28,964 nt of DNA from positions 1 to 28,964 of IMG/VR virus record IMGVR_UViG_3300042261_000837; one strand, written 5' to 3'. The notes beneath the pieces are model-generated. The model saw only the letters and a program-made list of their open reading frames with translations, was not told the DNA's origin and did no database searches. Source of the DNA: a virus. A program made the translations under genes and the position numbers. This document shows, one piece after another, positions 3,782 to 21,384 of this stretch (the stretch's first letter is position 1; each line of letters begins with the position of its first letter).

Positions 3782-5371
3782 TTATTCCAAAGCTATTGCT
3801 CTCATATCTTTGATAACAGGAACGCTTAGATTTGAATTACTAAACATGCAAATCTTTATTGCAAAATATCTAAACGTATCATAAGTTACACCATTTGAGA
3901 CATAAGTTATATTTGTTGGCGGAGAAGCTTGTGCTCCAGAAGGAACATATGTATACTCCGCAAAATCATTTATATTTTGAGCATAGACAAGCGAATTAGA
4001 ATCTACTCTCATTCTTGTCCAATACTTGTTATCAAAATTTTGATCAGGATCTTCAGAACTTAAAACTTTATAATATACTTGAATATCATGATTTGGAAAT
4101 CTATTTGCAGTTATGAATACTTTAATATCTCTAGCATCAAACCCATCAGCAAGAGTTACTTTTCTTGTGGTATAACGAACAAGAGAATTACCACCACTTC
4201 TTGAAGTTTCTCCAACAATTATTGCCGATGCATTGCTATTTCCCGTACCAGTAATTTCCGAAATAGTAACTGTAGGTGTTTCAGTATAACCCGATCCAGA
4301 ATTAATTATATAAATTGCATCAATTGTTCCTGTTGGTGTAACATTTGCAACTGCAGTGGCAGTTACTCCTCCAGTTCTTGTAGGTGCCGATATCGTTACA
4401 GCAGGTATTGCTGCGGAGCAAGCACATGCAACATCAGAATTATATCCAGAACCAGAAGCCGTGATCGCAACTATGCTATTTGTCAATCCACCATCATTTA
4501 TTATATTAGTAACAAATGTAGAATTCAATCTTGTTGTATCAATTATTGGAGATACAAAATCTGAAGTTGAAGAAAGTGTGATAGAAGTTTTAAATGATCC
4601 TTTTGTATTTCCGGAAATTACTTTTCTTTCAGTAGGAATATATGTTCTATTTGTGCTTAGTTCAACATATCCTGGATCCAAAGATCCAGTAGAATTTGAA
4701 GTTGTTATAGCAGAATATGATGTTTTAGTTTTTCCAAAATTAACTTCTGTTGTTGTAAGACTATATGCATCATATACTACATTAGAATTTGCATAACCAG
4801 ATTCTTGAGCGGTATTTGACGTTGGACTATTAAAATATATTACTCCAGATGATGATATGTCAAACTTAGCTCTGTGAATTCTAAACATAACATCTTCATC
4901 TTGAATTGCTGTCCAAGTGCTTCCATTTTGTGATTTAAACAACGATCCTGAATATGGTTGTTTTGAAACTCTTCTATCTGTTCCTAAAATATTTTCTTCT
5001 AATCTAGCAACAAATACATCATAATCTATTGAATTTGTTTTTAAAACAAATGCATGTTCTCCTGGTGGAAGATAAATTGGTTGTCTAAATGTAAATCTAG
5101 TATATTTTGTACTATCGGTAAAGCTTGGTAGATCCGCACCTATTCCTGTTGATGTATTTACGAATGTTGGGAAAACAAGAACTTCAGCGTTATGATATTC
5201 TTTTCCAATATCTGGATATCCATTTGTTGTTGAAGTTAAACTCATGATAACAGGAAGTTGCCCATCTTTAGACTTAAAACATAAATCAATCGCTGCAACA
5301 AACATTCCGTCTGGCGCAGTTTTACTATCTACGAAAAATGTTTGTGCAAAGGGTGTTATTATATTTGCCAT
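3782..5371 (-). CDS. Baseplate/fibre-associated structural protein resembling the C-terminal half of DUF4815 proteins
   Basis: A 529-aa structural protein. The N-terminal domain (about 5-172: 'PFAQTFFVDSKTAPDGMFVA', 'QPIYLPPGEHAFVLKTNSID', 'SKQPYSGSLFKSQNGSTWTA') and the C-terminal part (about 398-455: 'TRKVTLADGFDARDIKVFIT', 'IQVYYKVLSSED') match, as I recall them, segments that follow the DUF4815 region inside one large polypeptide in related phages. Here they form a separate gene, 14 bases after the DUF4815-like gene. Residues about 298-388 carry two GSGY beta-repeats of the type also seen in gp6, gp7 and gp8. GGAAAG precedes the start, so independent initiation is likely. The protein probably sits at the baseplate rim or the fibre attachment site. 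Confidence 0.8.
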   Translation of the reverse strand: MANIITPFAQTFFVDSKTAPDGMFVAAIDLCFKSKDGQLPVIMSLTSTTNGYPDIGKEYHNAEVLVFPTFVNTSTGIGADLPSFTDSTKYTRFTFRQPIYLPPGEHAFVLKTNSIDYDVFVARLEENILGTDRRVSKQPYSGSLFKSQNGSTWTAIQDEDVMFRIHRAKFDISSSGVIYFNSPTSNTAQESGYANSNVVYDAYSLTTTEVNFGKTKTSYSAITTSNSTGSLDPGYVELSTNRTYIPTERKVISGNTKGSFKTSITLSSTSDFVSPIIDTTRLNSTFVTNIINDGGLTNSIVAITASGSGYNSDVACACSAAIPAVTISAPTRTGGVTATAVANVTPTGTIDAIYIINSGSGYTETPTVTISEITGTGNSNASAIIVGETSRSGGNSLVRYTTRKVTLADGFDARDIKVFITANRFPNHDIQVYYKVLSSEDPDQNFDNKYWTRMRVDSNSLVYAQNINDFAEYTYVPSGAQASPPTNITYVSNGVTYDTFRYFAIKICMFSNSNLSVPVIKDMRAIALE

Positions 5372-5385
5372 TTTTTTCTTTCCGA

Positions 5386-8300
5386 TTATCTATCTTTTAA
5401 AATTTTATTCAAAGCAACTTTACTTAGTCTATCTATTTCACTACGATCTACGGGCTTAATCCATCCTTGACGAATAGCAAAAGCTGTTACAACAATTGCA
5501 GGTCTAACAAGAGCGTGCCAGAAATAACGCTTTATTGGAATTTTCTTGTTATTCAACTTCGCATCAATCCATTGTGTACGAGTATTTGCAAAATCCTCCA
5601 ACAAATATCTAATTACGCGATTAGTTGGCATTCTTTTGACAAATGGTAAAAATAGTTTGTGATATGCTTTTTCCCAACTTGGATCAATTTTATTAACTTC
5701 ATTCCAACGCATCCACAATCTATTATTACGAGAAATAGGAGAAAATCCATATAATCTATTCATCATTGTACAGACTATTTTACCCCCACATCCACAACCA
5801 GAGCCACCAGTATCACCGCAACCGGGGTCAGGTCCACCGCCACCGCCACCGCCTTGCCAATACCACTCAGAAGGTGATGATGGTGGTGGTGTATCATCTC
5901 TAACCAAAGTTTGTTGTGTTTCTACACTCGTAATTATATCACTTGTAGTTGTAATTTGTTCAATAGAAGTTGTTACTACAGGTTTTGGAACTCTTACTGA
6001 TATAGATTGTGCTTCTTTTGTTTGCACCAATCCTTGTGCAAAGAAAGTTGCTTCAGCAAAAGTTGGTTTGTCTTGTAATGAATTTGTGAAACTAGATGTT
6101 AATCTAAACTTCTTTTCTCCAGTAAAGAATGTCGCAGGAGGTATAACAAAGCTACCGGCAATTTGTCCCAAATATGGATGAACTGTAGGCAATCCTATAC
6201 TATAAACACTTGTTGTATCTGGCGCTGGAACAAAAGGTTTATCAACAGTTACTATACGATTATTACTATCGTAACTAGCAATCTGACGAACTTGTCCAGA
6301 ACCTGTTCCCGTGACAATCATTATAATATTGTTTTGCGAATCAGAAAGATTGAAAATATTATTAGCACCAAACGTCAAATCATATGGCGGAGGTGTATTT
6401 GGTGCTTCCAATCCGACTTTAGTAGACAAGTTCACAACATATGAATTAGAAGTATTAGCACTACTTACGTTTGCAGAATACACAAATACATTTGCAACAA
6501 CTGCAGAATTACCTGAAGACATACCAGTTATCGTATCACCAATATTGATTGGCGCATGTCCAGCAAATATGGTTAGAACTAACGGCGCGCCGTTTGCTTG
6601 AATTGTTTGAAGAGCTACTTTTCCAATATCTTTATTTGAAATTTGTAGTTTTTCTAGTCCGGTTGAATCAAATCTTCCTGTTGGATTTTTAATCCAAATG
6701 ATAGTTGGATATCTCCAATATGCAAGCATTCTTTGATCATCAAAGAACGGAAAGACCATACTTCCTGCTTTTAACTGTGATGCTTTTACATCTATTTGCG
6801 TAGATCTCATATATGGAACTACAGATACATCAACAATATTATCGCCAATTTGTTTTGTAATTGTTTCTGGAACAATAGTTGTGGTAGTTATTGATCTTGA
6901 CTGTTTAGTTGTTACGGTATCAATACTTCTTGAAACATCTTGTTGCCAAGTTAGATATCCTTGAGTAAATTGACTACTACCTTTATCAACTTTTGTTGAA
7001 GTGACGCCAGACCAATCTGTCTGCCAATCACCATACTTTGTACCAGAATGTAAAGTTGCGGATTCAAATGCATCATTTTCACCTTCAAGATTTACTAGAA
7101 CTGAAGGTCTATTTTCAGTATCTTTCCAAACATCGTTGTCTGGAGTCAACTTCATTGTGCCAATAAATGACGCATAATTGAAAGGATTAATGTTTACTGA
7201 ATTTGTAGCAACATCTTGAACTGCATACTCTTCTAATGTATAACTTAAAGTAGCAGTATCAATTGAGTATTTAATATTTGTATTACCAGTTGCAACTTCT
7301 AGTCTAGAATTATATGTAGAAAATCTTGGTCTTAGTTCTCCTTTTTGGAAATCCATAGAACAAGCGTAATCGTATGAACGAACGTCGCCAACCTTATGTC
7401 CGTTAAAACTATCAACTATAATTCCATTCTTGAATCTTGTTAGCCCATTAGAATCAACAATTGTTGTTGAATCTGCATCAACCTCAAGCAAGTTTAGTGA
7501 TGCATAATATTCAAGATTTTGAATTCGTTTTTCCAAACGACCAATATCGCGCATTGTATATCTTTTATTTTCATTATAACGAACATCAACGAGCGATGGT
7601 TGTGAAGTAAATGGAGGAATATTTAAAGTATAAAGAAGCATATCCCCTTCACGATGTTCTGGTGTTTCGGGAACATCGGCTGGAACACCTTCAATAGTCT
7701 TGAACACTCTATCTGATGATAGAATAATTTTATCAGTTCTTCCAAGATAATAAGAATAATCAGAACTAAATGATTGGTCCGGTTGAAGTATTAGAGCACC
7801 AGAAATACTACCAGTATTTGCTTTATCAATACCATTAGTTCTAATTGGTCTCCAATCAACAGAGTCTGCTAGTCTATATGTTTTTCCTGTTGTTGGACTT
7901 GTATATGTTGGAATTGAAACATATCCATCATTTGTTGTTGCATTTGGATATGAATCAACAGTTAAATAGCCAGAGGTTCCAGCATGAGAATAATAATCAA
8001 AAAACGCAACAAGTCTTCCAACCGGAACTCTTCCTCCAGCCTTTAAAGTAATCGTTGCATGATCATAAAGATTATCATTTTGTCCTGTATCTAATTCATA
8101 ACTACTTGTTAGATCTGTTGCAAATGAAAGATTTGCCTGTGTAATTGTTCTATAATTTCCTCCGGCATCTCTACCAAAATCGTAGATTTTTCTAATGCTA
8201 ACAACATCAGAAACATATAGAGACTGTGGCGTTCCTACAGTTTTAATTACACTATTAGAGTCATAAACTTGAACTTGAACGCTACCATCAGCAAAATATA

Positions 8301-10551
8301 CCTTTGTATTTGTTGATAGCAATGTTGCATTTGCAGTTCCTGTTTGAATTAAAGAAACATTCGCATTATATCTTGATTTAACTCTTTCAGAAGGAGCTGT
8401 TCCTGTTAATCCGACACTATATATTACTTCAGCTTGGAACGTATTTGCATTAGCCCATGTTAGCGTAGCAACACGACCTGTTCCATCAATAGATATTGAT
8501 CTTCCTTGAGAAGTATTGAATGTTAAAATGTCTCCATTTGAATAATAGCCAAATGTGTCTGGTAATGCATCGGATCCTGCTGAAGATTTGTTTTTAAGAA
8601 CAACTGTAAAGTTGCTTAATTTAGCAGAATCGCCAAGTGTTCCTGCTCCAACAAAAGACTCCGGTGAAGAAAGAGTAATTGTTGCAACACTTGTTGTTCC
8701 GCCAGATGTAAATGTTACAGTAGAGCTTTTCTCTCTATATTGATAATCTACATCAGTAATTGAACTTGGTTTAATAAATTGTTGTGGATATGGAAATATC
8801 AACGAATTAAAATCTGTATCTGAAACAAAAGTATTGCCAAAATAATTATTATTTGATTTACTTGATAAATCAATTTGCATTATTTTATTAAATGCAGCAT
8901 TTGACTGATATACTATTCCAGGCATAGCTGAAGTTGTATTGGCAATATAAACTAGACTTTGAGCATCTGCTGTATTATAAGAACTACTTGTAATATTGAT
9001 ATCTGTTAGATATGCTTTGTATATGTGTGTTAGAGAATTTGAATTGTTTGAAGCACTTACAAATTCAAACGCACGGATTCTTGCAGTGCCAATTTTTGTA
9101 TTAGTATAAGTTGCATCTAGTGAATTTGCTACGTTAACTCCGCCAAAAATAGAATTTGCGCCAACTCTATGAATATCATAAATTTCAAATTGATCAATAG
9201 TTGGTAATCCTTTTACACCATTAACATAGACATAGTTTCCTAAAGTTGAAATCAGATCGTAGTTTGATACATTTGAGTAATCGCGACCTCTACGTACCGA
9301 TAACTTTGTAACTCTATTTTCAAATTCATAACCCTTAACATATGCTTTTCCACCAGATAGTTTTACAGTAAATTTATCTGGATTTGAAATTAGAACTTGA
9401 TCTTCTGCCAAACTAAAAACAAAATTATTTGCAAGACTTAGCGAAGTATTTGAAGCAATTGCAGTAACTATATCTGTTTGATTATTTGAAAACAATCTTG
9501 AGTTCACACTAACATCAACAAGAAAACTTGTTCCGTTTCCTGTTACTGTACTTGTTCCTGCGGTTAGAGTTGCTGTTCCTGGAATAGAAGTGGGTTGATG
9601 CTCTTGCAATTCAATTAAAAATGGGGTTACTGTATAATTTCCGGATTCATCAAAAGTTCTTCTTGCTAATGTTTTTTCTATTTCAGAATAAATTGGAAAA
9701 TTAACTTTTTTAGTTATTTCACCATTTTCAATACGAAGCAATTCAATAAATCTTGTGTCATCCGTGCTTGCCAAACTTCTTTTGGCAAGACGAGCAGTTA
9801 TTTTATATCTTGATGCTCCTGGCGCTTGATAATTTGTTGCTTCAAGAGCAGGATCAAGAAGACTTGTATCAGATCCATAGTCAACAATAGAATCATCAAT
9901 TTCTAGTCCAACTCTATATGTTGAGTTGTTTGTAAACTTATCTAGAATTATTGTTTGTGATTGAACTTTGATAAAATAACCATCAAAGAAATATACGCCC
10001 TCATTTATACTTACGACAGATGAACTTACAATGTCTCCCGCAGATGAATTAACTTGAGCAAAAGTGTTTGTTACATTTGCTGTAGTGGTTTGAACAACTA
10101 TATTTGCAGAGAATGAACCTGAAGACATGGGCTTTATGATTAAAACTGGAGGATCCGCAGTTGTCTGCTCAGCCGTTTTTAGAACATACGCTGTTGGTCT
10201 TGTTACTTCACTAAATCTTGTATTTGCAATCTCTGCCGCTATATATTTTTGAAAGAAATTATTTGCAACAATATCACTTGCTTGATATTGTGATTTTAAG
10301 TTTAAACAAATGATATTTTCATCTGCGCCCTGGTATGTTATTTCACCACCAAGAACAACAGAACCGTTTTTGAATATGTGTTTTCCAAATCTTTCAATTT
10401 GTTTTTGTAAAATTGTTTGAAGCTGCGTTAACTCACGCGCCTGAACGGCAAATCCGGGTCTAAACAGAATACGATGAAAATCTTTATTTTCATCATAATC
10501 ATCATAATAAGGAGCTTCAGTTGTTTCAATTGGAACAATTTTATCTACCAT
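5386..10551 (-). CDS. Large DUF4815-like baseplate structural protein
   Basis: A 1721-aa protein. The N-terminus ('MVDKIVPIETTEAPYYDDYD', 'HRILFRPGFAVQARELTQLQ', 'FGKHIFKNGSVVLGGEITY') is the hallmark of DUF4815, a large virion protein of aquatic myoviruses placed at the baseplate periphery after gp8. The middle is beta-rich, with 'TADSVDWRPIR'-like segments (about 790-900) and a long Asn/Ser/Thr-rich region. About residues 1550-1590 form a Pro/Gly/Cys-rich linker ('GGGGGGGPDPGCGDTGGSGC'). The last about 133 residues are a basic, Trp-rich helical module ('KIVCTMMNRLYGFSP', 'KAYHKLFLPFVKRMP', 'LVRPAIVVTAFAIRQGW') that recurs, as I recall, as a C-terminal add-on in some myovirus structural proteins. 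The start has AAGGAAG upstream. Exact equivalence to T4 gp9 or gp10 is not claimed. The part that usually ends these proteins is encoded by the next gene. Confidence 0.85.
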   Translation of the reverse strand: MVDKIVPIETTEAPYYDDYDENKDFHRILFRPGFAVQARELTQLQTILQKQIERFGKHIFKNGSVVLGGEITYQGADENIICLNLKSQYQASDIVANNFFQKYIAAEIANTRFSEVTRPTAYVLKTAEQTTADPPVLIIKPMSSGSFSANIVVQTTTANVTNTFAQVNSSAGDIVSSSVVSINEGVYFFDGYFIKVQSQTIILDKFTNNSTYRVGLEIDDSIVDYGSDTSLLDPALEATNYQAPGASRYKITARLAKRSLASTDDTRFIELLRIENGEITKKVNFPIYSEIEKTLARRTFDESGNYTVTPFLIELQEHQPTSIPGTATLTAGTSTVTGNGTSFLVDVSVNSRLFSNNQTDIVTAIASNTSLSLANNFVFSLAEDQVLISNPDKFTVKLSGGKAYVKGYEFENRVTKLSVRRGRDYSNVSNYDLISTLGNYVYVNGVKGLPTIDQFEIYDIHRVGANSIFGGVNVANSLDATYTNTKIGTARIRAFEFVSASNNSNSLTHIYKAYLTDINITSSSYNTADAQSLVYIANTTSAMPGIVYQSNAAFNKIMQIDLSSKSNNNYFGNTFVSDTDFNSLIFPYPQQFIKPSSITDVDYQYREKSSTVTFTSGGTTSVATITLSSPESFVGAGTLGDSAKLSNFTVVLKNKSSAGSDALPDTFGYYSNGDILTFNTSQGRSISIDGTGRVATLTWANANTFQAEVIYSVGLTGTAPSERVKSRYNANVSLIQTGTANATLLSTNTKVYFADGSVQVQVYDSNSVIKTVGTPQSLYVSDVVSIRKIYDFGRDAGGNYRTITQANLSFATDLTSSYELDTGQNDNLYDHATITLKAGGRVPVGRLVAFFDYYSHAGTSGYLTVDSYPNATTNDGYVSIPTYTSPTTGKTYRLADSVDWRPIRTNGIDKANTGSISGALILQPDQSFSSDYSYYLGRTDKIILSSDRVFKTIEGVPADVPETPEHREGDMLLYTLNIPPFTSQPSLVDVRYNENKRYTMRDIGRLEKRIQNLEYYASLNLLEVDADSTTIVDSNGLTRFKNGIIVDSFNGHKVGDVRSYDYACSMDFQKGELRPRFSTYNSRLEVATGNTNIKYSIDTATLSYTLEEYAVQDVATNSVNINPFNYASFIGTMKLTPDNDVWKDTENRPSVLVNLEGENDAFESATLHSGTKYGDWQTDWSGVTSTKVDKGSSQFTQGYLTWQQDVSRSIDTVTTKQSRSITTTTIVPETITKQIGDNIVDVSVVPYMRSTQIDVKASQLKAGSMVFPFFDDQRMLAYWRYPTIIWIKNPTGRFDSTGLEKLQISNKDIGKVALQTIQANGAPLVLTIFAGHAPINIGDTITGMSSGNSAVVANVFVYSANVSSANTSNSYVVNLSTKVGLEAPNTPPPYDLTFGANNIFNLSDSQNNIIMIVTGTGSGQVRQIASYDSNNRIVTVDKPFVPAPDTTSVYSIGLPTVHPYLGQIAGSFVIPPATFFTGEKKFRLTSSFTNSLQDKPTFAEATFFAQGLVQTKEAQSISVRVPKPVVTTSIEQITTTSDIITSVETQQTLVRDDTPPPSSPSEWYWQGGGGGGGPDPGCGDTGGSGCGCGGKIVCTMMNRLYGFSPISRNNRLWMRWNEVNKIDPSWEKAYHKLFLPFVKRMPTNRVIRYLLEDFANTRTQWIDAKLNNKKIPIKRYFWHALVRPAIVVTAFAIRQGWIKPVDRSEIDRLSKVALNKILKDR

Positions 10552-10560
10552 TTTTCTTCC

Positions 10561-11886
10561 TTAAAACTTTATTACTATTGTTAAACTTTCTGTTTGATCC
10601 AATGATCTTGAAACAGGTTGAATGTTATCTACATACAGTACTTGTCCACTACGAGATTTCAAATTTGGATTAGTAATTTGAGTTACGAATCGTGCAGCAC
10701 CTGAGTTTGCACCGTTCAAATTTCTTGCAGTTGGTGTTCCAAATGTTTCAGTCAACTGCAGCTTTCCGTTTCCTGTATCCCAATAAAAAACTCGTCCTGC
10801 AAATGTAGCTGTTGTTAACGCAGTTCCTTGAAACACCCATTCGTCATTTATATATTCTGGTCCAGAACCTGAAGTTGATAGAGTCGTTAATTGAGTAAAT
10901 GCTACGTTAGAAAAAGCATTTTCTGTACCAAAAACATATGGGTCTCTAATGATTGAGACTTGTCTAAAATCATTAGTCACAGGAACTTTACCATTTTCAC
11001 TAGCATTTATACGAGCATTAATTAATATTGTTGATGCACCAAGTTCATTTATTGGATCACTACCATGCCCATTAATTGGACTCATTATTGCTCTAACATT
11101 TGCCATTGTTCCACTAGTTCCAGCAATAGAAATATTTGCAAACGTATAACCTGTGCCAGAAGAAGTAACTACAACGTTATCAACAATTTGAGAAGTTGTA
11201 TTCAAATATGCTGTAGCAGTAGCTCCTGTACCATCACCATAAATTGAAACAAGTGCATTAGAAACATTTGAATAACCCGTTCCACCATCTTCTACTAAAA
11301 TAATTTCTATTGAGCCATCAATGGCTGCTTCTTGAACACCCCATTGTGGAGAAGCGTCATCGTTAGTTAATCTTTTTACAGGCATCCATTCATCTGTCAA
11401 AAATCTTCTACGATCATTTGTATTTAAAGTATACATATATTTCCAAATATAACCATCTTCTTCAGTAGAAGTTGAATTAAATGTGGTGTAAGTTGGTTTT
11501 ATTGTTGAGTTTGCGCCATCATTGTTAAATAAACACTTATAAACATTATACTCATCTGTCAAAACATAAAACTGAGTACTATCATTTAATAAATTATTTG
11601 CTCTATCATCATACTGTGTATAAACTGTATTTGCTGTCCAATTAAAACGTTTTGTAACTATAGCTATATCGTTACCTGTTATTTTTTTGCCACCTATCAT
11701 GTTTTTCCAGACAGCATTTTGATTGTTTATGCTGTCTACGGCTGTATTTGGATAAGAATCACCATTTGCCCATGGGGTATTTTTGCCTATGGCAATAAAA
11801 AGATTTGTTGGATCAGTTTCTGAAACTTGTTCTTTAAACTGTTCAGCCGAATCGGTTCTAATGCTTTTTGTTCTTAGTGCTGTCAT
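10561..11886 (-). CDS. 8: Baseplate wedge protein gp8
   Basis: 441 aa against 334 in T4. Segments typical of gp8 in T4-like phages are visible: 'NLFIAIGKNTPWANGDSYP' (29-46), 'KKITGNDIAIVTKRFNWTAN' (67-86), 'FYVLTDEYNVYKCLFNN' (106-122), 'EDGYIWKYMYTLN' (143-155), 'MPVKRL' (168-173), and near 280-315 'INELGASTILINARI'. Residues about 192-270 are an insertion of two GSGY beta-repeats ('GGTGYSNVSNALVSIYGDGT', 'GTGYTFANISIAG'), which explains most of the extra length. gp8 is a dimeric wedge component linking gp6/gp7 to the baseplate periphery. It is preceded by a late-promoter motif 28 bases upstream and has only a weak ribosome site. Confidence 0.88.
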   Translation of the reverse strand: MTALRTKSIRTDSAEQFKEQVSETDPTNLFIAIGKNTPWANGDSYPNTAVDSINNQNAVWKNMIGGKKITGNDIAIVTKRFNWTANTVYTQYDDRANNLLNDSTQFYVLTDEYNVYKCLFNNDGANSTIKPTYTTFNSTSTEEDGYIWKYMYTLNTNDRRRFLTDEWMPVKRLTNDDASPQWGVQEAAIDGSIEIILVEDGGTGYSNVSNALVSIYGDGTGATATAYLNTTSQIVDNVVVTSSGTGYTFANISIAGTSGTMANVRAIMSPINGHGSDPINELGASTILINARINASENGKVPVTNDFRQVSIIRDPYVFGTENAFSNVAFTQLTTLSTSGSGPEYINDEWVFQGTALTTATFAGRVFYWDTGNGKLQLTETFGTPTARNLNGANSGAARFVTQITNPNLKSRSGQVLYVDNIQPVSRSLDQTESLTIVIKF

Positions 11887-11914
11887 TTATCTACTTTTAC
11901 TCTATTATAATTCA

Positions 11915-11922
11915 TATTTATG
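11915..11922 (-). promoter_or_regulatory. T4-type late promoter (CATAAATA) for gp8 and downstream genes
   Basis: The minus strand reads CATAAATA, matching the NATAAATA late promoter element of T4-like phages. It overlaps the gp7 stop codon and lies 28 bases before the gp8 start, close to the 26-base spacing of the motif before gp48. It lies in the longest gap between gp6 and the left edge. Confidence 0.55.
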
Positions 11923-14900
11923 TGTCGCTAGGAGAAGTGTTACAAGCAATAATACTATTTGCGAAGTTGAAATTACCACCTCTACCATAATTTATGTTGG
12001 CTTGAGCAACATTACCCTTCAAGTATATAGAGGTATAAATTTCAGATTTAACGTTATAGCGGAAAATAGCATCATTTGTAGAACCAATTATAAATGCTCC
12101 ATTTGCGGAATCATAATATAGTCCGGTCATGGCCGTGTCATTTATGTATTCTGAATGCTTTTTTACGTAAGTAGACGTTATGATATCCCAAGGAGTATTT
12201 AAATTGAATTCATATACAGCATCTTGAGTAGATCCAGTAATGAACATTTTTGTTCCGTTTTCATTAAATGTCAAACCTGTTGGCTGGGTTTCTGTAGTTT
12301 GAGTGAACACATTCACATTTTGCGTATATGTTGCTGTTGCTACATTCCATGCGCTTCCCAAGGTGTACTGATGAATTTTATCAGTTCCTGTTCCTGTAAC
12401 ATACATATACAGTCCCGTATTAGAGAATGAAAGACCGCTAGTGTTTGACTCTTGAGTTGCTACGTTTACTTCACCCGAGTTTGCCAAGAATCCTCCAGCA
12501 GAAACCGTTATACTAAAGATATTCCATGTCTCTGACATATCAAATTGTTTGACTTTGCTTTCTCTATTGTAGATGATATACAATCTACTTCCATCACTCT
12601 TGATAAAGATATCGCTTGGATCAACTGAACCATCTACACAAATACCAACATTTGCTGTATTGCCTATAAATGTTGCGGTATTAACATCCCAAGGTGTAGA
12701 TAGATTGTATTTTCCTATATTCGCATTAACATATCCAATTGTATAGAAACTGGTGCCATCTGGTTTGAAGAATACACCACGAGGATCTTCTTCATATGAT
12801 CTAATATTAAATGAATTGCCTGTGTATGACCATTCCGGATAGATATGAACCATTAGATTTGTTGGCAATAGAGAACCATTAGAACTATTAAATTTGCTCA
12901 TCAATGCAGTATTTGTATGATCAGTATAAGAATTAGAAAACCATAGTTCAGACAAACAACCAATAAATTTATTATTACCTATGACAGTACCCGAAACTGT
13001 CACATTTCCACCTTGATAATCTATTAGTCCTGTTTCTGTTGTTATATACTCACGAACATTGTTTTTTGCATTTCCGATTACAAATATTTTATTATTTCCT
13101 AAACTTATGAATGAACCCTTTGGCTGATCATCCTCATTATCGGTGGTATGTGTAATATAATGTCTTGCAGTTGTTATATCCCAAGGAGTTGATAATCTAT
13201 ACTCGCTTATACCTCTTGCTGTTGTTCCCGTAATATACATTCTAGTTCCAGTATTACTAAAGGTAATTCCTTGTGGAATTGTTTCAATTCCGCCAATGTA
13301 TAGATTAGATGTATAAGAAGCTGTATTAACACTCCAATTCGTACCCAATGTATATTGGTACACTTTACTATTTGCTGAGCAGGTAATATACATGCTATTA
13401 CCTGTAGTTGAAAAATGAAGTCCGTGTGTATTTGTTGCTCTTGAAGAAACATAAACATTTCCAGATTCATTTAGATAATACTTTTCATTATCTGGGCTTG
13501 TAACAGAAATACTTTTTAGATTCCAAGCATTTATCAAATCAAATTCTTTTATTTTTGCTAATGTTTCATCAATAACATAAGCTTTTGTTCCATCTGGTTT
13601 AATAAACATATCTCCTGAATTGGGCCCTTCCATGGTTGCCAAAAATGTAGCCGAAGATATATTTGCACCAGTTGCAGTAACCAAAGGTAATACATTATAT
13701 CCAGTTCCTTTGGCAGTTACAACAATTGAATGAATGACATTATTTTCAGGCTTAGATAAAAGTTCTGCAGTTAGTTCTGCTATACCAAACGCGGTAAATG
13801 ATGCCGATGAAGTATTTGCTCCTCCAGCAGTGATTGTTGGTCTTGTTGTATAACCGGATCCCGCATTTACAATTGTCAATTTATTAATATTTCCAAGAGA
13901 ACCGACTTCGTATGAAATATTAGCGCCCGAACCATTACCACCTGTTATTATTAGATAATTACCATTTGAATATCCAGTTCCTGCAACGTCAATTGAAACA
14001 TTACAAATATTATGCGTTACATTTCCAAGAGTATGCGGCGGTGGTAATATTGTAGGAGGAGAGATCGGATCGTAGCTATGACCAGCAGACTTTACATTGA
14101 TAGCAACAATCGCACCTGAGACAGGATTTACAGAAAACTGAACATTAGCACCAACTCCATCTCCAGAATTAGTTATTGTCAAAAATCCGTTTGAATATCC
14201 TCTACCGGGTGATGTTCCCGATGCGGCAGGGGGTATTCCTATATAAATTCCTGTAAAACTACCATTTCCTTTCGCAACATAGTTTGCTATTGTTCCTGTT
14301 CCGGAACTTTCACTAAACACCAAGGAGCCATTAGAATTATATCCACTTCCGCCGCTAACGATTCTAATATCAGTAACATAACTTAGTTCAGTATTCGCAG
14401 TGCCGTATACAAACTTTGCTGTACTTACATTCCATGGAGTTGATAAGTTGTATTGACTAATATTTGCTCTATCATGACCAACGATAAACATGCTAGTTCC
14501 ATCTGGTCTAAAGAAAATGCCAGTTGGAGTATTTTCTATACTACTTGCAACATTTGTAGTAAACGTTGCTGTTGTTATGTTTGAACCTTGTGCAGTAATT
14601 GTAGGTAGAGATGTATAACCAGATCCAGGATTGTTTATCGTTATACTAAAAATTGTATTTTGTAATGAATTTGATGAATACGATTCATTGCTATTCAAAG
14701 AATTAGCAATCACATAGCTTGCATTTGCTCCAGATCCACCACCACCAGTAAATATTAAATAGCCATTTGAATTATATCCTTGACCGCCAGAAGAAATAGT
14801 TATTTTCTCAATATAACCATCTCCTAATGTAATTGCAAAAGATGCTGGAGCTATATTTGATCCACCAGCCGTTGCAATTGATCTAACATTTGCATTATAT

Positions 14901-17491
14901 GCAAATCCACGATTGTTAATTGTTATTGTAGTTATTGTATTTTGACGAGAATTTGTAGAATAAGATTGTGATGTGTTTATTGAATTTGCAATGGTATATG
15001 TTGCATTTGCCCCACCGATTTGAGTGAATACTATAGATGCATTAGAATTATATCCTTGCCCACCATCAATAATATTAATACCGCTAATATAACCACCAAC
15101 AGAATAGACATTTGAAGTTGGCTCCCAAGGTGAACGAACATTAGTAGAATTTATTTCGTTTAAGAAAATTCTATTATTTGTTACGTTGCTTAGATCCCAA
15201 GTAGACAAAATGTGCATCCAAGTATTAGATATAATTTTGTTTTTTACATTGCTTTCCATTTTTAATAGAAGCACATTAGAAGAATCACGACCTTCTATTC
15301 TAATGAAACTATTAGAGAAGTTTGATGAATCTCCTTTATTAATCAACTTAACTAAAAATCTTGGAGATATTAAAGCAGTATTTGAATTAGAGATTGTTAA
15401 TATTAATTGATCAGTAGCTAAACTGTTTGGATTAAACCAAAAATTAATTGAACCTGTACTGGAATTGGCCGTATCATTTAATGACGAGTTTCTATAAATT
15501 AAAGAATTTGCTGTTGAAAAATAATATGAGTTAGCAGCAAACGGTTGATAGTTTGCAAGTATTGCATCATTTATCAAAACAACGTCATCAATATCAGTAT
15601 TTGATTTATAATCAAATTCAGCCCAAAGCTTAGTTCCTGATGGATGAACAAGATCATTCAAGTACTTTCTATAACTATTCAATGCTTTTCTTACTTTTAC
15701 GACATAGCTATAATTTTGATAATAATCTCTGTCTTCTAGTTTGTTTGTTCCACTTATTAGACCCGTGTCATCTAGATATTTTCCAGGATAAGTAAACGTT
15801 CCTGCATCTGCATTTGCATATGCAGTTGCTGTTCCGTCACCACTAGAAATTAGATTTATTGTTGGTGCATTCAGATAACCATATCCTTTATTTGTTATAG
15901 TTATTCCCAAAATCTGACCAATTGTGCCTGTTGTTGAAGTTAGCGATTCGCCATATCCCAAAAATCCATCAATTTCAATTGATGCGTTTGTTCCGCTTGA
16001 AGTACTTCTAACTTCAATAGTGGGAAGACTTAATTGACTATACGCAAGTCCGCCAATATGTTCAGTTCTTGTTCCTAGTGTGTTTGAACCGTTTAGAAAA
16101 TCTCCTTCAACAGTTCTCCAAGTGTAACTTGTAATTGCACCATTTGCATCAACATTTACATATGCATTTGCACCATAACCATAAACTCCAGTTTTATTCA
16201 TGAATACAATTGTATCACCATTTGAATAACCAACGCCCGGACTAACAATTCTTAAACGACCGGGAACACTTAGAGAACGTAATGTTGTATTACCGACGAT
16301 TGATGCTAATGGTATAGAAGTATATCCAGATCCGCCTTCATTCACTTCAATACTAACTGCTGGACCAATTGGACCATAATCAACATATGACCATGTATTT
16401 GATAAAGGAGTATTTGCGTCCCCAAGTGCTGATGTATTACTATATTGACCTATTCTTGTAGATTGATATTCGCCTACTGTATCAACACACAAACGATAAT
16501 ATGTTGGATGAAATCCACCATTTGCACTAATAGCATCAACGTATCCAGATGCACCAGAACCAAGTCCACCTGTATAAATTACAGGATTTGCAGGTATACC
16601 TGGAGTAGTTCCATTTGCGGTTCCCTTAAATCCTGCTCCACCACTAAGAACTATTGTTCCAGAAACATTACCTAAAGAAACATTGCTAATAAATGCTGTA
16701 GCACCAATACCACCTGATCCGCCTTCAAATACAATTGGAGTTCCTATTGTATAACCAGATCCACCATCAGTTATTGTTATTGAAGAAATAAATCCAGATA
16801 GAAGATTGCCTGATATTGTGTCGCCATCAACATTTACTGCAAAAAATGGCTCACCTGCAATGAAATTTCCCTTTTGCTTCGAGAGATAAAACTCCACATA
16901 ACGACTACCAACTTCGTATGTCGTAAGAATTTTTTCTACTTGTGCCGTCGCAGTTGAATTGTTTCCACGAATTAGTGTGCTATTGAACTTTTTTAATGAT
17001 TCTACAGTCGTATCTGCAATACCATTTACTTTAATGTCTGTTAATCTTACTGATTTTTCAATATACCATTTTCCTGAAGATGCTTTTAGAATATCATCTT
17101 TGGGATAATAGAAGCTTGATTCTTCTCCGAAAAGAATTCTATAGATAAAATCGTATGATTTCTGAGTTCCTGTGCCAAGATAAAAATCTTTTATGTTTTT
17201 TAATATCTTTGAACGATCTGCTTGTGACTCTTTTGGTATGAATGTTAAAAATTGATCATATAATCTATCTGCAAATTGCGTCAATCCGGTTTGATCAATT
17301 TTATCAATATCAAGATAGTTTCTAAAGTTTTTTGCACGTTCAACTGTTTTACCAAAACTTAGAGTATTATTAGATTGTTCAAGATATTCATAATAAGCTT
17401 CAAGAAAGGATATAAATGTTGGATGATCCGATCTAACGAATTCTGGTAGCTGACTAGAAACTATCGTTGATATTTTTGTATTAGTTGTCAT
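11918..17491 (-). CDS. 7: Giant baseplate wedge protein gp7 with GSGY repeats, LamG-like and propeller-like domains
   Basis: 1857 aa against about 1030 in T4. Assignment to gp7 rests on the order gp25-gp6-this-gp8 and on the N-terminal domain (about 1-230: 'LPEFVRSDHPTFISFLEAYY', 'YLGTGTQKSYDFIYRILFGE', 'KWYIEKSVRL') found in the large wedge proteins of aquatic T4-like phages. Further parts: GSGY beta-repeats (about 235-555), a conserved link 'YQNYSYVVKVRKALNSYRKY' (591-610), a LamG/ConA-like half (about 652-800, 'GSINFWFNPNSLA', 'TWMHILSTWD'), GSGY repeats (about 800-985), propeller-like blade A1 (about 988-1035), more GSGY repeats (about 1037-1285), blades A2-A5 (about 1292-1484), the LamG-like second half (about 1488-1545, 'NKFIGCLSELWFSNSYTD'), and blades B1-B5 (about 1571-1825). 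Carbohydrate or envelope contact is a plausible role of the added domains. Its start overlaps the gp6 stop (TAATG). Confidence 0.85.
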   Translation of the reverse strand: MTTNTKISTIVSSQLPEFVRSDHPTFISFLEAYYEYLEQSNNTLSFGKTVERAKNFRNYLDIDKIDQTGLTQFADRLYDQFLTFIPKESQADRSKILKNIKDFYLGTGTQKSYDFIYRILFGEESSFYYPKDDILKASSGKWYIEKSVRLTDIKVNGIADTTVESLKKFNSTLIRGNNSTATAQVEKILTTYEVGSRYVEFYLSKQKGNFIAGEPFFAVNVDGDTISGNLLSGFISSITITDGGSGYTIGTPIVFEGGSGGIGATAFISNVSLGNVSGTIVLSGGAGFKGTANGTTPGIPANPVIYTGGLGSGASGYVDAISANGGFHPTYYRLCVDTVGEYQSTRIGQYSNTSALGDANTPLSNTWSYVDYGPIGPAVSIEVNEGGSGYTSIPLASIVGNTTLRSLSVPGRLRIVSPGVGYSNGDTIVFMNKTGVYGYGANAYVNVDANGAITSYTWRTVEGDFLNGSNTLGTRTEHIGGLAYSQLSLPTIEVRSTSSGTNASIEIDGFLGYGESLTSTTGTIGQILGITITNKGYGYLNAPTINLISSGDGTATAYANADAGTFTYPGKYLDDTGLISGTNKLEDRDYYQNYSYVVKVRKALNSYRKYLNDLVHPSGTKLWAEFDYKSNTDIDDVVLINDAILANYQPFAANSYYFSTANSLIYRNSSLNDTANSSTGSINFWFNPNSLATDQLILTISNSNTALISPRFLVKLINKGDSSNFSNSFIRIEGRDSSNVLLLKMESNVKNKIISNTWMHILSTWDLSNVTNNRIFLNEINSTNVRSPWEPTSNVYSVGGYISGINIIDGGQGYNSNASIVFTQIGGANATYTIANSINTSQSYSTNSRQNTITTITINNRGFAYNANVRSIATAGGSNIAPASFAITLGDGYIEKITISSGGQGYNSNGYLIFTGGGGSGANASYVIANSLNSNESYSSNSLQNTIFSITINNPGSGYTSLPTITAQGSNITTATFTTNVASSIENTPTGIFFRPDGTSMFIVGHDRANISQYNLSTPWNVSTAKFVYGTANTELSYVTDIRIVSGGSGYNSNGSLVFSESSGTGTIANYVAKGNGSFTGIYIGIPPAASGTSPGRGYSNGFLTITNSGDGVGANVQFSVNPVSGAIVAINVKSAGHSYDPISPPTILPPPHTLGNVTHNICNVSIDVAGTGYSNGNYLIITGGNGSGANISYEVGSLGNINKLTIVNAGSGYTTRPTITAGGANTSSASFTAFGIAELTAELLSKPENNVIHSIVVTAKGTGYNVLPLVTATGANISSATFLATMEGPNSGDMFIKPDGTKAYVIDETLAKIKEFDLINAWNLKSISVTSPDNEKYYLNESGNVYVSSRATNTHGLHFSTTGNSMYITCSANSKVYQYTLGTNWSVNTASYTSNLYIGGIETIPQGITFSNTGTRMYITGTTARGISEYRLSTPWDITTARHYITHTTDNEDDQPKGSFISLGNNKIFVIGNAKNNVREYITTETGLIDYQGGNVTVSGTVIGNNKFIGCLSELWFSNSYTDHTNTALMSKFNSSNGSLLPTNLMVHIYPEWSYTGNSFNIRSYEEDPRGVFFKPDGTSFYTIGYVNANIGKYNLSTPWDVNTATFIGNTANVGICVDGSVDPSDIFIKSDGSRLYIIYNRESKVKQFDMSETWNIFSITVSAGGFLANSGEVNVATQESNTSGLSFSNTGLYMYVTGTGTDKIHQYTLGSAWNVATATYTQNVNVFTQTTETQPTGLTFNENGTKMFITGSTQDAVYEFNLNTPWDIITSTYVKKHSEYINDTAMTGLYYDSANGAFIIGSTNDAIFRYNVKSEIYTSIYLKGNVAQANINYGRGGNFNFANSIIACNTSPSDT
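12017..12781 (-). repeat. Propeller-like array B in gp7 (five blades)
   Basis: Encodes gp7 residues about 1571-1825: five units of about 40-60 residues with the pattern G-[VIL]-x-F-x-x-x-G-[TS]-x-[MF]-[YF]-x-x-G, then a strand such as 'IGKYNLSTPWDVNTATF'. Unit starts are near residues 1571, 1626, 1685, 1737 and 1789. Confidence 0.75.
13040..14530 (-). repeat. Propeller-like array A in gp7, interrupted by GSGY repeats
   Basis: Encodes gp7 residues about 988-1484. Blade A1 ('GIFFRPDGTSMFIVGHDRAN') is separated from A2-A5 by about 250 residues of GSGY repeats (13637-14383). Each A blade resembles its counterpart in array B more than its neighbours, for example 'ISQYNLSTPWNVSTAKF' with 'IGKYNLSTPWDVNTATF', and 'VYQYTLGTNWSVNTASYT' with 'IHQYTLGSAWNVATATYT'. 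Confidence 0.7.
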
Positions 17492-19572
17492 TAGATTGCC
17501 TGATTACTCATTTCAACTTGTACTGCTACGGGATCTAAATTATCAATTAACAAAATACGATTTCTTTTTGGATGAACTGTTGGATCATCACTTTCAACAT
17601 TAATTGTCAAAATACCATAATCATAATTTGGATTACGAACAACATCAATTGGATTGAAATCTATCAATCTAATTATTCCTGTAGTATAATTTATTGTTCC
17701 CGCATTTTCATTAATAAAGATCTTTTCTCCTGTACTTTCTTGAATATAAAAAGTTCTTAGAGTTCCAATTTGCGTTGATAGTATTGCTTCTGCACTAGCT
17801 GCATTTCCATCACCAATCAAAGTAACTACTGCTGATGTATAATTTGAACCGCGAGTTTTGACAATGATTCTACTTACTTTTCCGTTAACAATTTCAGAAT
17901 AAGCAGTTGCTCCACTACCATCTCCAGTTATTATTACAGATGGTGGTGTTGAATAGTTATATCCAGGATTGGTAACTGATATAGATTGCACTCCTGTAAA
18001 AGATAATGGAGTTTCTTCAATTATCGCTTCACGAACAACACCTGTTGGATCTATTACTGTGAACGGCGGATATGAATATAATCTATCTTTATAAGTTCCA
18101 CGTTTTAGTGGAGTGTTAAATTCTAACGTATAATTTTTTGCGGCGCCCAAAGTTGGCTGGAATCTTTTTTGTAAAACCACACTCATATCACTACTTAAGA
18201 ACGAATTGTCCGCTGTATCAATTGATTTCTGTAATCTTGATTGTCTAAAGGTGGCATTGAATTTTTCTAGCTCATTTACGCTATAATTTTCAATTTGTGC
18301 TTTCACTTTGTTCTTTAATGCTTCTTCATCTAATATTGTTTTTGTTTCGTCGTAATGAACAATCACATAAAGCTTTAAATAAAGATAATCTGGATCAACT
18401 ATTTCTGGTGTAACTGTTATGATATTTCTTGATTCAAGAAGTTCGCGAATTATTCTTCTTTTTTCCAAATCTGTTATTACATATCCTGCTTTTGGAACTA
18501 GAGATATAAAAACTTTTCCGTATTGAACTGGAATATTTTCTTCTCCGCCCCAAATAGAAGCAGCTTGAATATTTGGATAGTCTTTTTGTAATATTATTTC
18601 ATAATCAGAAACAGTAACTGCTCTATTTTGTGTTGTATAATATTTCGGTGCAGTATATTTTATTTTTTCAATCGATTCTTTATTTGAACCGCCAGAAGAT
18701 GCACTAATTGAGTTAACTATAACATTTGAAAATACACCAGCACCAGAAACTAGTGTAAATGAATTTGCTTTATTTGATGCATCTCCAGATGTGTCAATGT
18801 AACTTAATTGAACAATATTTCCATCATCCAAATTTTTACCAATATAACCATCTCCAAAATAAATTGCATATTGACCCGAAGGATCTTCTTCCAAGAAATA
18901 GACAGTAGAATTTGATTTAATGTCAAGAGTATCTTGCGCCAATGTGTAAGTTTGCTCGGAAGTATCAAGTATAGAAGTTCTTATGCTAACATCTAATGTT
19001 GTCGTATCAACATTTGCTGACGGTATTAAAAATCGTCTTTTTGTATTACTCTCAGTTACCGTAACATTATATGTTAATCTTTCACCTTGTTTTATTTCTA
19101 TTGAAGAAAATGTATAAGTGTTTGAAGTTACATTTTTACTTGCTGTATATGCTTGCGGTGTAACAAAAGTATAATTTATTCCATCAATTTGTTGCGATTG
19201 CAACTGAGAAAATTTTGGCAAAGTATAAGAAGATAAACCACTTCCGCCAGGCAAATCATCTGTGATTACTACATCAACTATAGCTGTTGCTGCTCTGGCA
19301 GATGTTGGCAAATAATTTAGGTGTTTAGCATGAGATACTACAGAACTTCTAATCGTGGCACTATCCAGAAATGCTTCATTACCAACCATGTTCAAGTAAT
19401 ATGACATATAATGTGTGTTATATGCAAGAACGTCAAGCAAAACGTTTAATCCAGAACCTTCAAAATCATAATCAGTAAATTGATTTTGACTTCTTAGATA
19501 ATCTTTGAGATTAGTCTTAATTGCATCAAAATCAAGTTCAGCTATTCTTAAAACTGTATTAGACGCAGCCAT
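17491..19572 (-). CDS. 6: Baseplate wedge protein gp6 (baseplate J family)
   Basis: 693 aa, close to T4 gp6 (660). The N-terminus ('ELDFDAIKTNLKDYLRSQNQ', 'YDFEGSGLNVLLDVLAYNTH', 'YYLNMVGNEAFLDSATIRSS', 'HAKHLNYLP') is diagnostic of gp6, the wedge protein that forms the inner ring holding the hub. 'FGDGYIGKNLDDGNIVQLSY' and 'RAVTVSDYEIILQKDYPNIQ' belong to the J-like core. Residues about 528-597 are two inserted GSGY-type beta-repeats ('NPGYNYSTPPSVIITGDGSG', 'TRGSNYTSAVVTLIGDG') not present in T4 gp6 as far as I know. The start is 1 base after the gp25 stop, with AAAGAG upstream. The stop overlaps the gp7 start. Confidence 0.92.
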   Translation of the reverse strand: MAASNTVLRIAELDFDAIKTNLKDYLRSQNQFTDYDFEGSGLNVLLDVLAYNTHYMSYYLNMVGNEAFLDSATIRSSVVSHAKHLNYLPTSARAATAIVDVVITDDLPGGSGLSSYTLPKFSQLQSQQIDGINYTFVTPQAYTASKNVTSNTYTFSSIEIKQGERLTYNVTVTESNTKRRFLIPSANVDTTTLDVSIRTSILDTSEQTYTLAQDTLDIKSNSTVYFLEEDPSGQYAIYFGDGYIGKNLDDGNIVQLSYIDTSGDASNKANSFTLVSGAGVFSNVIVNSISASSGGSNKESIEKIKYTAPKYYTTQNRAVTVSDYEIILQKDYPNIQAASIWGGEENIPVQYGKVFISLVPKAGYVITDLEKRRIIRELLESRNIITVTPEIVDPDYLYLKLYVIVHYDETKTILDEEALKNKVKAQIENYSVNELEKFNATFRQSRLQKSIDTADNSFLSSDMSVVLQKRFQPTLGAAKNYTLEFNTPLKRGTYKDRLYSYPPFTVIDPTGVVREAIIEETPLSFTGVQSISVTNPGYNYSTPPSVIITGDGSGATAYSEIVNGKVSRIIVKTRGSNYTSAVVTLIGDGNAASAEAILSTQIGTLRTFYIQESTGEKIFINENAGTINYTTGIIRLIDFNPIDVVRNPNYDYGILTINVESDDPTVHPKRNRILLIDNLDPVAVQVEMSNQAI

Positions 19573-19975: not shown

Positions 19976-20743
19976 TTATTTATTCAACAATCCCAGTAGT
20001 TTTTGTTGTCCTATTTTACTTTCAAGCAGCAATTTTCCGCAAGGATTTTGATACATACTCTCTAATAGTGACGATAAAGAAGCCTGAATTAATTTATCCA
20101 AAGCTTGTTGAAAAAAGTTATTATCTGCATCTATTATATTTTGCAACGTAGTAACCATTTCATTTAATCTATAAGCAATTTCCGTCACATCAGCTAAGCA
20201 GCTATTAATCTGTTCTATCATACTTGCTATTTGACTTCCATAACCACTTAACAATTCTTCTGAAAATAAACCTGTCATATTATTTAATAGACTAAAACAT
20301 TCAGAAGTACCATCAACTGCACCCGATAAATTGCCTAAAGATCTACCAACAGACAAAATTCTATCAAGACCGGGTGTCGGATTTGTTCCTTGAGGAATCA
20401 ATCCCGATAATATTTGTGTATGCGTTGAAAAAAGACTTAGTTGTTGAGATAATCCACCTACGCCACCAGTTCCTATTGCATTATGAAGAGTTGCCTTTTC
20501 CCCACCAGACAAACATCCACTATTAGTAACCACATCATAGATACTACTAATGTTAGTTTCGAGTCCATTTATGACGCCCCCAACCGGATTTTGAAATATC
20601 GCACTTCTTCCTTCTTGAAGTAGCGTCTCAAAAATATTTTGAGACGTTAGTGAAGGCATTGAACTTTGAGGAAATGTTCCACCTGGAAATCCCGAACTAT
20701 TCGGTATTATTACTGGTGAAGACGATGATGGTAATACGGGCAT
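19976..20743 (-). CDS. Uncharacterised virion-associated protein between PAAR and gp25
   Basis: 255 aa. I do not recognise a named family. Residues 1-35 are Pro/Ser/Gly-rich and extended ('MPVLPSSSSPVIIPNSSGFP'). The rest is predicted helical with regular hydrophobic spacing: 'QNIFETLLQEGRSAIFQNPV', 'YGSQIASMIEQINSCLADVT', 'MVTTLQNIIDADNNFFQQAL', 'LIQASLSSLLESMYQNPCGK'. Four Cys (about 82, 149, 187, 237) are spread out with no zinc-finger spacing. Its position between spike tip and gp25 suggests a hub-proximal structural or assembly protein. GGAGAATAA gives a good ribosome site and the start is 16 bases after the PAAR stop. Similar helical, Cys-containing proteins at this position occur in aquatic T4-like phages, as I recall. 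Confidence 0.8.
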   Translation of the reverse strand: MPVLPSSSSPVIIPNSSGFPGGTFPQSSMPSLTSQNIFETLLQEGRSAIFQNPVGGVINGLETNISSIYDVVTNSGCLSGGEKATLHNAIGTGGVGGLSQQLSLFSTHTQILSGLIPQGTNPTPGLDRILSVGRSLGNLSGAVDGTSECFSLLNNMTGLFSEELLSGYGSQIASMIEQINSCLADVTEIAYRLNEMVTTLQNIIDADNNFFQQALDKLIQASLSSLLESMYQNPCGKLLLESKIGQQKLLGLLNK

Positions 20744-21048: not shown

Positions 21049-21384
21049 TTATTCTCTTGTCAATTCTAAAAATTTTTCTATTTGCTTTTCTACAATTTCT
21101 TTGCGATTTGGCCACTTGATATAAACTTTTTCTGGGTTTTTTGCTAAGTTTAACAAAAGAGGAAGAATCATATCTTCAACTTTTTTAAGACGAGTTCTAA
21201 CTTCCATTTCAATTAAACGCTTGTGTTCGTCAACATCAACTTTAGACAATAGATTATCAAGCTTCTCTTCTAATTTCTTGACATCTTCTGTTGCTGCAGG
21301 AGAAGCTATGGTTGGTGGTGTAGCTAATGATTTTACGTATTCATCTTCATCTACTGCACTAAAGCCAAAATCGTTTTCCGACAT
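21049..21384 (-). CDS. Small conserved T4-like protein between spike and PAAR
   Basis: 111 aa, no named function. It starts 'MSENDFGFSAVDEDEYVKSL', followed by a Pro/Ala linker, a predicted coiled coil (about 34-75, 'EDVKKLEEKLDNLLSKVDV') and a C-terminal motif 'LLLNLAKNPEKVYIKWPNRK'. The combination of an acidic 'FGFxxVDE' start and an 'NPEKxYIxWPNR' end is, as I recall, conserved in small proteins next to gp5 in many T4-like phages. The start follows the gp5 stop by 11 bases with AAGGA upstream, and the stop is 1 base before the PAAR start. Possibly an assembly factor of the hub or spike; this is inferred from position. Confidence 0.8.
   Translation of the reverse strand: MSENDFGFSAVDEDEYVKSLATPPTIASPAATEDVKKLEEKLDNLLSKVDVDEHKRLIEMEVRTRLKKVEDMILPLLLNLAKNPEKVYIKWPNRKEIVEKQIEKFLELTRE

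Follow-up and report, generated by a model that had tools for sequence, protein, structure and literature searches.

How did a baseplate wedge protein of a marine phage come to carry ten blade-like repeats, and what could they do for the virion? The window, by which we mean the whole stretch of 28,964 bases that was analysed, is a virus record with a T4-like tail module. Its minus strand holds the genes for gp25, gp6, a gp7-type and a gp8-type protein and further tail proteins, after which head-closure, DNA end protector and tail-tube genes follow on the plus strand; the virus is a marine T4-like phage. The organization of the repeat-bearing protein is as follows, with identities to L102, a propeller-free relative whose core is 51% identical.

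11918..17491, minus strand: gp7-type baseplate wedge protein, 1857 aa, a single uninterrupted ORF with gp6 upstream and gp8 downstream
15596..17491, minus strand: gp7 core, residues 1-632, with the motifs FYYPKDD and YYQ-SYV...LVHPSG
15131..15574, minus strand: N-terminal part of the LamG-like domain, residues 640-787, 48% and 39% identical to gp7 segments of L102
14537..15094, minus strand: first insert of GxGY repeats, residues 800-985, ahead of blade A1, placed by motif positions and a phrog_460 match
14384..14536, minus strand: blade A1, residues 986-1036 (blade HMM 3e-17; pLDDT 91-96)
13628..14383, minus strand: second insert of GxGY repeats, residues 1037-1288, from A1 to A2, of low confidence in the model
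13025..13627, minus strand: blades A2 to A5, residues 1289-1352, 1353-1404, 1405-1454 and 1455-1489 (pLDDT mostly 90-98)
12851..13024, minus strand: C-terminal part of the LamG-like domain, residues 1490-1547, 44% identical to the C-half of the L102 LamG region
12050..12850, minus strand: propeller B, residues 1548-1814, a predicted N-terminal closing strand followed by B1 (1567-1620), B2 (1623-1683), B3 (1684-1735), B4 (1736-1785) and B5 (1786-1814)
11918..12049, minus strand: C-terminal SIYLKGN...FNFAN segment, residues 1815-1857, and stop codon, continuing the LamG-like region and aligning with the C-terminus of L102

The protein matches Pfam PF23786 (Baseplate_wedge) above the cut-off, and its core is 44% identical to the propeller-free gp7-type protein of contig L012. 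By hhalign, the core profile aligns with residues 645-827 of T4 gp7 (probability 93.8, E 1.8e-7), which, together with the order gp25-gp6-gp7-gp8, bears out the gp7 assignment made in an earlier note on this DNA; gp6-gp7-gp8 is also the order of T4, so the two proteins share the position between gp6 and gp8. However, the match is confined to that one stretch of T4 gp7, which has other N-terminal domains, whereas the window protein is extended at its C-terminus instead. Because the T4 gp7 Pfam models PF21427, PF21428 and PF21456 are matched by T4 gp7 and not by the window protein, we use the label gp7-type. The blade HMM gave no match in T4 gp7 either, and the earlier statement that propeller arrays are absent from it thus holds at the sequence level. 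Elsewhere in the module, 5386-10551 and 3782-5371 (minus strand) correspond to successive stretches of phrog_358 (7-1417 and 1423-1586), and one gene of relatives seems to be split in two at 3782-10551 (minus strand); the ORFs 19976-20743 and 21049-21384 (both minus strand), between gp25 and a gp5-type gene, have no PHROG match.

The repeats had been described as ten units in two sets of five at 12017-14530, which corresponds to residues 988-1825 of the ORF. The ORF, the coordinates and the unit count were all confirmed; the two sets are present, but set A is split, with A1 and A2 kept apart by GxGY repeats over about 250 residues (1037-1288), and residues 1490-1547, between A5 and B1, are LamG-like. 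As for the proposal that unit n of A pairs with unit n of B, it stands for units 1 to 4 and fails for unit 5. In the global comparison, the pair scores were 163 for A1/B1, 103 for A2/B2, 121 for A3/B3 and 118 for A4/B4, and in both directions the partner outscored every other unit. The A_n/B_n pairing ranked first of 120 permutations, and the paired local scores of these four units exceeded all 500 shuffles (z = 29, 19, 16 and 22). Unit 5 had a paired local score inside the range of the 500 shuffles (z 2.8); A5 is weak by sequence and has A1 and B2 as its best partners, and B5 goes best with B4. The shared marks named earlier were largely found in place, namely the long tail and SGxVxV strand of A2/B2, QYTLG in A3/B3 and TPWDI in A4/B4; the ending NTAN, however, occurs in B1 only, and with GTANT in A1 it is TAN that both units have in common.

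The propeller geometry suspected from these repeats was recovered by AlphaFold2 (AF2) and structural alignment, which together support two closed five-bladed propellers. The AF2 model of propeller B (residues 1548-1840, 71 sequences) reached a mean pLDDT of 88.9 and a pTM of 0.88 with a 5 x 4 strand pattern. It aligned by VIA-align 2 with the C-terminal domain of YjiK (3QQZ) at Z 21.8 and rmsd 2.7 over 224 residues, followed by glutaminyl cyclases at Z about 20, with SMP30 also among the structural matches. Propeller A was modeled within residues 640-1556, from an alignment in which LamG rows falling on propeller columns had been removed or cut before folding. In this model, A1 and A2-A5 meet across the 250-residue insert, and the propeller aligns with 3QQZ at Z 21.1 over 223 residues, YjiK being the best match for both A and B; the LamG and GxGY parts are of low confidence, mostly with pLDDT below 60. 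A single ring of ten blades is ruled out, because either set by itself matches a full five-bladed propeller in the alignments and the two are separated by a LamG-like segment. Searching the PDB by sequence with the raw region turned up a chance match only, and the profile led to YVTN/lactonase-type propellers. The nearest solved folds retrieved with propeller B, the YjiK domain and the glutaminyl cyclases 3MBR, 3NOL and 2IWA, differ from the window protein in being cellular proteins of 10-13% identity. Among predicted structures, A0A6J5SCA5 of an uncultured phage, named "Baseplate wedge subunit," matches propeller B with a TM of 0.80.

Propellers are usually closed by a strand ahead of blade 1. 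In the model of B, blade 5 is short of full length and strand 11-19 lies ahead of blade 1; the predicted ring is closed by that strand completing blade 5. The same pattern runs through 144 related sets, where blades 1 to 4 reach HMM position 50 and blade 5 stops at 32; the last strand lacking in blade 5 is replaced by the strand ahead of blade 1. For propeller A, the 3QQZ alignment begins at residue 973, in a stretch with pLDDT about 40, and residues 788-799 (SPWEPTSNVYSV) are an alternative candidate for the closing strand by sequence.

The earlier note had read the pairing as duplication of a whole five-unit array, and the permutations, a set-level tree and a control on other tandem pairs all support this. 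In the tree of 53 five-blade sets, the two window sets are sisters (support 92/92, inner branch 0.58), and they are each other's most identical rows, at an identity of only 41%. Across 45 other tandem five-blade pairs, the mean diagonal minus off-diagonal score was 0.7, and the positional pairing ranked first of 24 in 3 pairs; in the same control, the window gave 119.5 versus 63.8 and rank 1. Positional pairing as a general property of the family is thereby ruled out. A blade-level tree left the ten short units mostly unresolved and the pairs unproven, though it rejected set A as a single clade (p-AU 0.0008); the case for duplication is carried by the set-level tree and the 45-pair control. 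Blade-by-blade growth after a split is disfavored by the permutation ranking and by the same control. Since the other pairs lack positional pairing, we conclude that the sequences most likely record, with good support, the duplication of a whole propeller after its blades had diverged by position. The copies stand at two different sites and are not a simple head-to-tail tandem. It is improbable, in our estimate, that A and B were instead acquired separately from a large pool of propellers, with no duplication in this gene: the low identity of A to B, the wide spread of the blade family and a tree support below the strictest threshold would fit such an origin, but the two sets would then hardly be expected as mutually most identical rows, or to pair by position where the 45 other tandem pairs do not.

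How the two copies entered the gene is indicated by comparison with L102, which has the same LamG-like sequence at both sites. Against L102, the window protein reads LamG-like N-half, insert A, LamG-like C-half, insert B, C-terminal segment, with insert A bounded by NEINSTNVR (about 787) and LIDYQGG (about 1490) and insert B by LLPTNLM (1547) and IYTSIYL (1815). The LamG region of L102 carries a GxGY insert of its own at a different place. As expected of a split domain, the window protein has no match to Pfam Laminin_G_3 (PF13385) above the cut-off, hence the wording LamG-like only, whereas L102, which runs colinear with both halves, exceeds the cut-off of 27.6 with a score of 30.9. LamG also recurs in the gp7 tails of L013, L128, L150 and L102. 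By these alignments, both propellers are insertions into the C-terminal LamG-like region of gp7, and the L102 order together with LamG in gp7 tails points to a nested arrangement, in which the LamG-like domain holds A, A holds GxGY repeats, and B follows. The earlier note had rightly placed the array in gp7, without recognizing the LamG-like scaffold, the nested insertions or the commonness of the five-blade family. An assembly chimera is unlikely, for the LamG-like segments keep the L102 order around both inserts and the G+C content has no sharp break. GxGY repeats occur in the gp6-, gp7- and gp8-type proteins of the window (10561-19572, minus strand) and also in head-closure PHROGs families.

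Outside the window, tail-fibre proteins of marine phages commonly carry blades of this family, which also occur in giant VCBS-type repeat-rich proteins of Pelagibacteraceae (SAR11) that look like bacterial surface proteins; in both settings they come almost always in fives. Over about 90 viral loci, the blade HMM detected 80 arrays of exactly five blades and 27 of ten, and cellular arrays came in fives in 114 of 149. Giant Pelagibacteraceae or alphaproteobacterial VCBS-repeat proteins with several five-blade sets each lie at L194-L206, L233, L239 and L250; the Pelagibacteraceae ones share blade family and sets of five with the window protein but are cellular, with the blades between VCBS/cadherin-like repeats and not in a phage baseplate. 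The window protein is the only blade carrier among 97 ORFs matching the gp7 profile, a number that includes a few gp6-/gp8-type ORFs or fragments and near-duplicate contigs (L013-L018, L127), the independent number being smaller. Among open-licence papers, we found none that treats these blades in marine phages or Pelagibacter. As a family the blades are not new, and the window represents an unusual arrangement of known parts, not a new kind of system.

Three further wedge loci deserve comparison. Another marine contig encodes a gp8-type wedge protein (L054:3034-8448) with a five-blade propeller that belongs to the same family and, as in the window, has GxGY repeats next to it; blade 1 of this propeller shares 62% identity with window A1. 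The protein differs in being another wedge protein (PF09215) with one propeller and no detected LamG-like domain. In Synechococcus phage S-SKS1 (L005:575-10760), the gp7 region extends over three ORFs, two of them unannotated, with a propeller in the second and the motif YYQ-SYV...LVHTSG in the third. Like that of the window, this five-blade propeller lies just downstream of gp6; unlike it, it is single and stands before the YYQ-SYV motif, not in the C-terminal tail. The "baseplate wedge protein 53" of Synechococcus phage S-SCSM2R (L011:5509-7851) has four weak blade matches at residues 311-511 and is possibly a further wedge propeller, judging by these matches.

Computation established the fold, the duplication and the insertion relative to the propeller-free relative; from these, we infer the location, copy number, exposure and binding role of the propellers. 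T4 gp7 is monomeric, with six copies per tail at the baseplate periphery (PMC3004832). We propose that a C-terminal LamG-like region (ConA-type, often sugar-binding) of the wedge protein received two five-bladed beta-propellers, A and B, derived by duplication of one whole propeller with blades already diverged by position. The closing strand in B would bring the domain ends close together, allowing the domain to fit in a loop of another domain, and GxGY repeats would additionally have interrupted set A. If the baseplate edge holds six copies of gp7, the number in T4, each virion would display twelve propellers, probably serving as accessory host-surface (glycan) binding sites alongside the tail fibres. 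Host-surface (glycan) binding by the baseplate is the most likely, putative function, and for the whole proposal, a LamG-like tail of a gp7-type wedge with two inserted duplicate propellers for accessory binding, we put the chances somewhat above even. Adhesin-type folds include both LamG and the five-bladed propeller, and the blade family occurs both in tail fibres and in apparent bacterial surface proteins. Against this reading, the best fold matches are YjiK and glutaminyl cyclases (enzymes), a shared fold giving no function, and the phage already encodes separate tail-fibre-like proteins.

A parallel is offered by the receptor-binding protein gp45 of Staphylococcus phage phi11, a baseplate-attached protein whose five-bladed propeller is likewise closed by an N-terminal strand, there completing blade 5; its cavity could hold GlcNAc, and the propeller also resembles 3NOL (PMC4901313). 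However, gp45 is a separate trimeric protein with coiled-coil stem, propeller platform and tower and one propeller per chain, located neither in a wedge protein nor in a LamG domain. It is not among the 50 structural matches listed for the window propeller, and a longer list may hold it.

The same evidence bears on other roles. Propellers and GxGY repeats might only thicken or brace the baseplate edge or serve as spacers, with no host binding; the recurrence of GxGY repeats in the gp6-, gp7- and gp8-type proteins suggests such a building-block role, and no residues for ligand binding were recognized in the blades. We regard this as unlikely, since blades are absent from the other gp7-profile ORFs found, hence dispensable for wedge assembly, and belong to a family also present in tail-fibre proteins. 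Propellers are common protein-protein binders, and the two could instead dock other virion proteins, for example side fibres. A precedent exists in T4, where gp9 binds a domain of gp7 (PMC3004832). Yet close gp7 relatives with the same neighborhood do without propellers and no window-specific partner was identified, so docking is quite improbable. Least probable is that the propellers act on a host surface compound, cutting or modifying it in the manner of lactonase or glutaminyl-cyclase propellers: there is a Pfam SGL match above the cut-off, and glutaminyl cyclases and SMP30 are among the structural matches, but the best stretch spans about a third of the SGL profile, and YjiK, the best structural match, is to our knowledge not an established enzyme.

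Accessory binding to the host surface thus remains our preferred reading. In a broader and more tentative form, which we think possible but doubtful, five-bladed propellers would be plug-in adhesin modules that move among marine phage tail fibres, several wedge proteins (gp7, gp8 and possibly gp53) and giant surface proteins of the likely hosts, turning the wedge, in addition to the fibres, into a variable receptor-binding or host-sensing surface. By the customary view, wedge proteins belong to the conserved machinery, and the variable, host-choosing part is the tail fibres. In this phage, nested insertion has furnished a wedge protein with two copies of an adhesin-type module, at sites revealed by a propeller-free relative, and SAR11-group bacteria have the same module in apparent surface proteins. 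Should the propellers bind hosts, host choice in ocean phages would also involve the baseplate rim.
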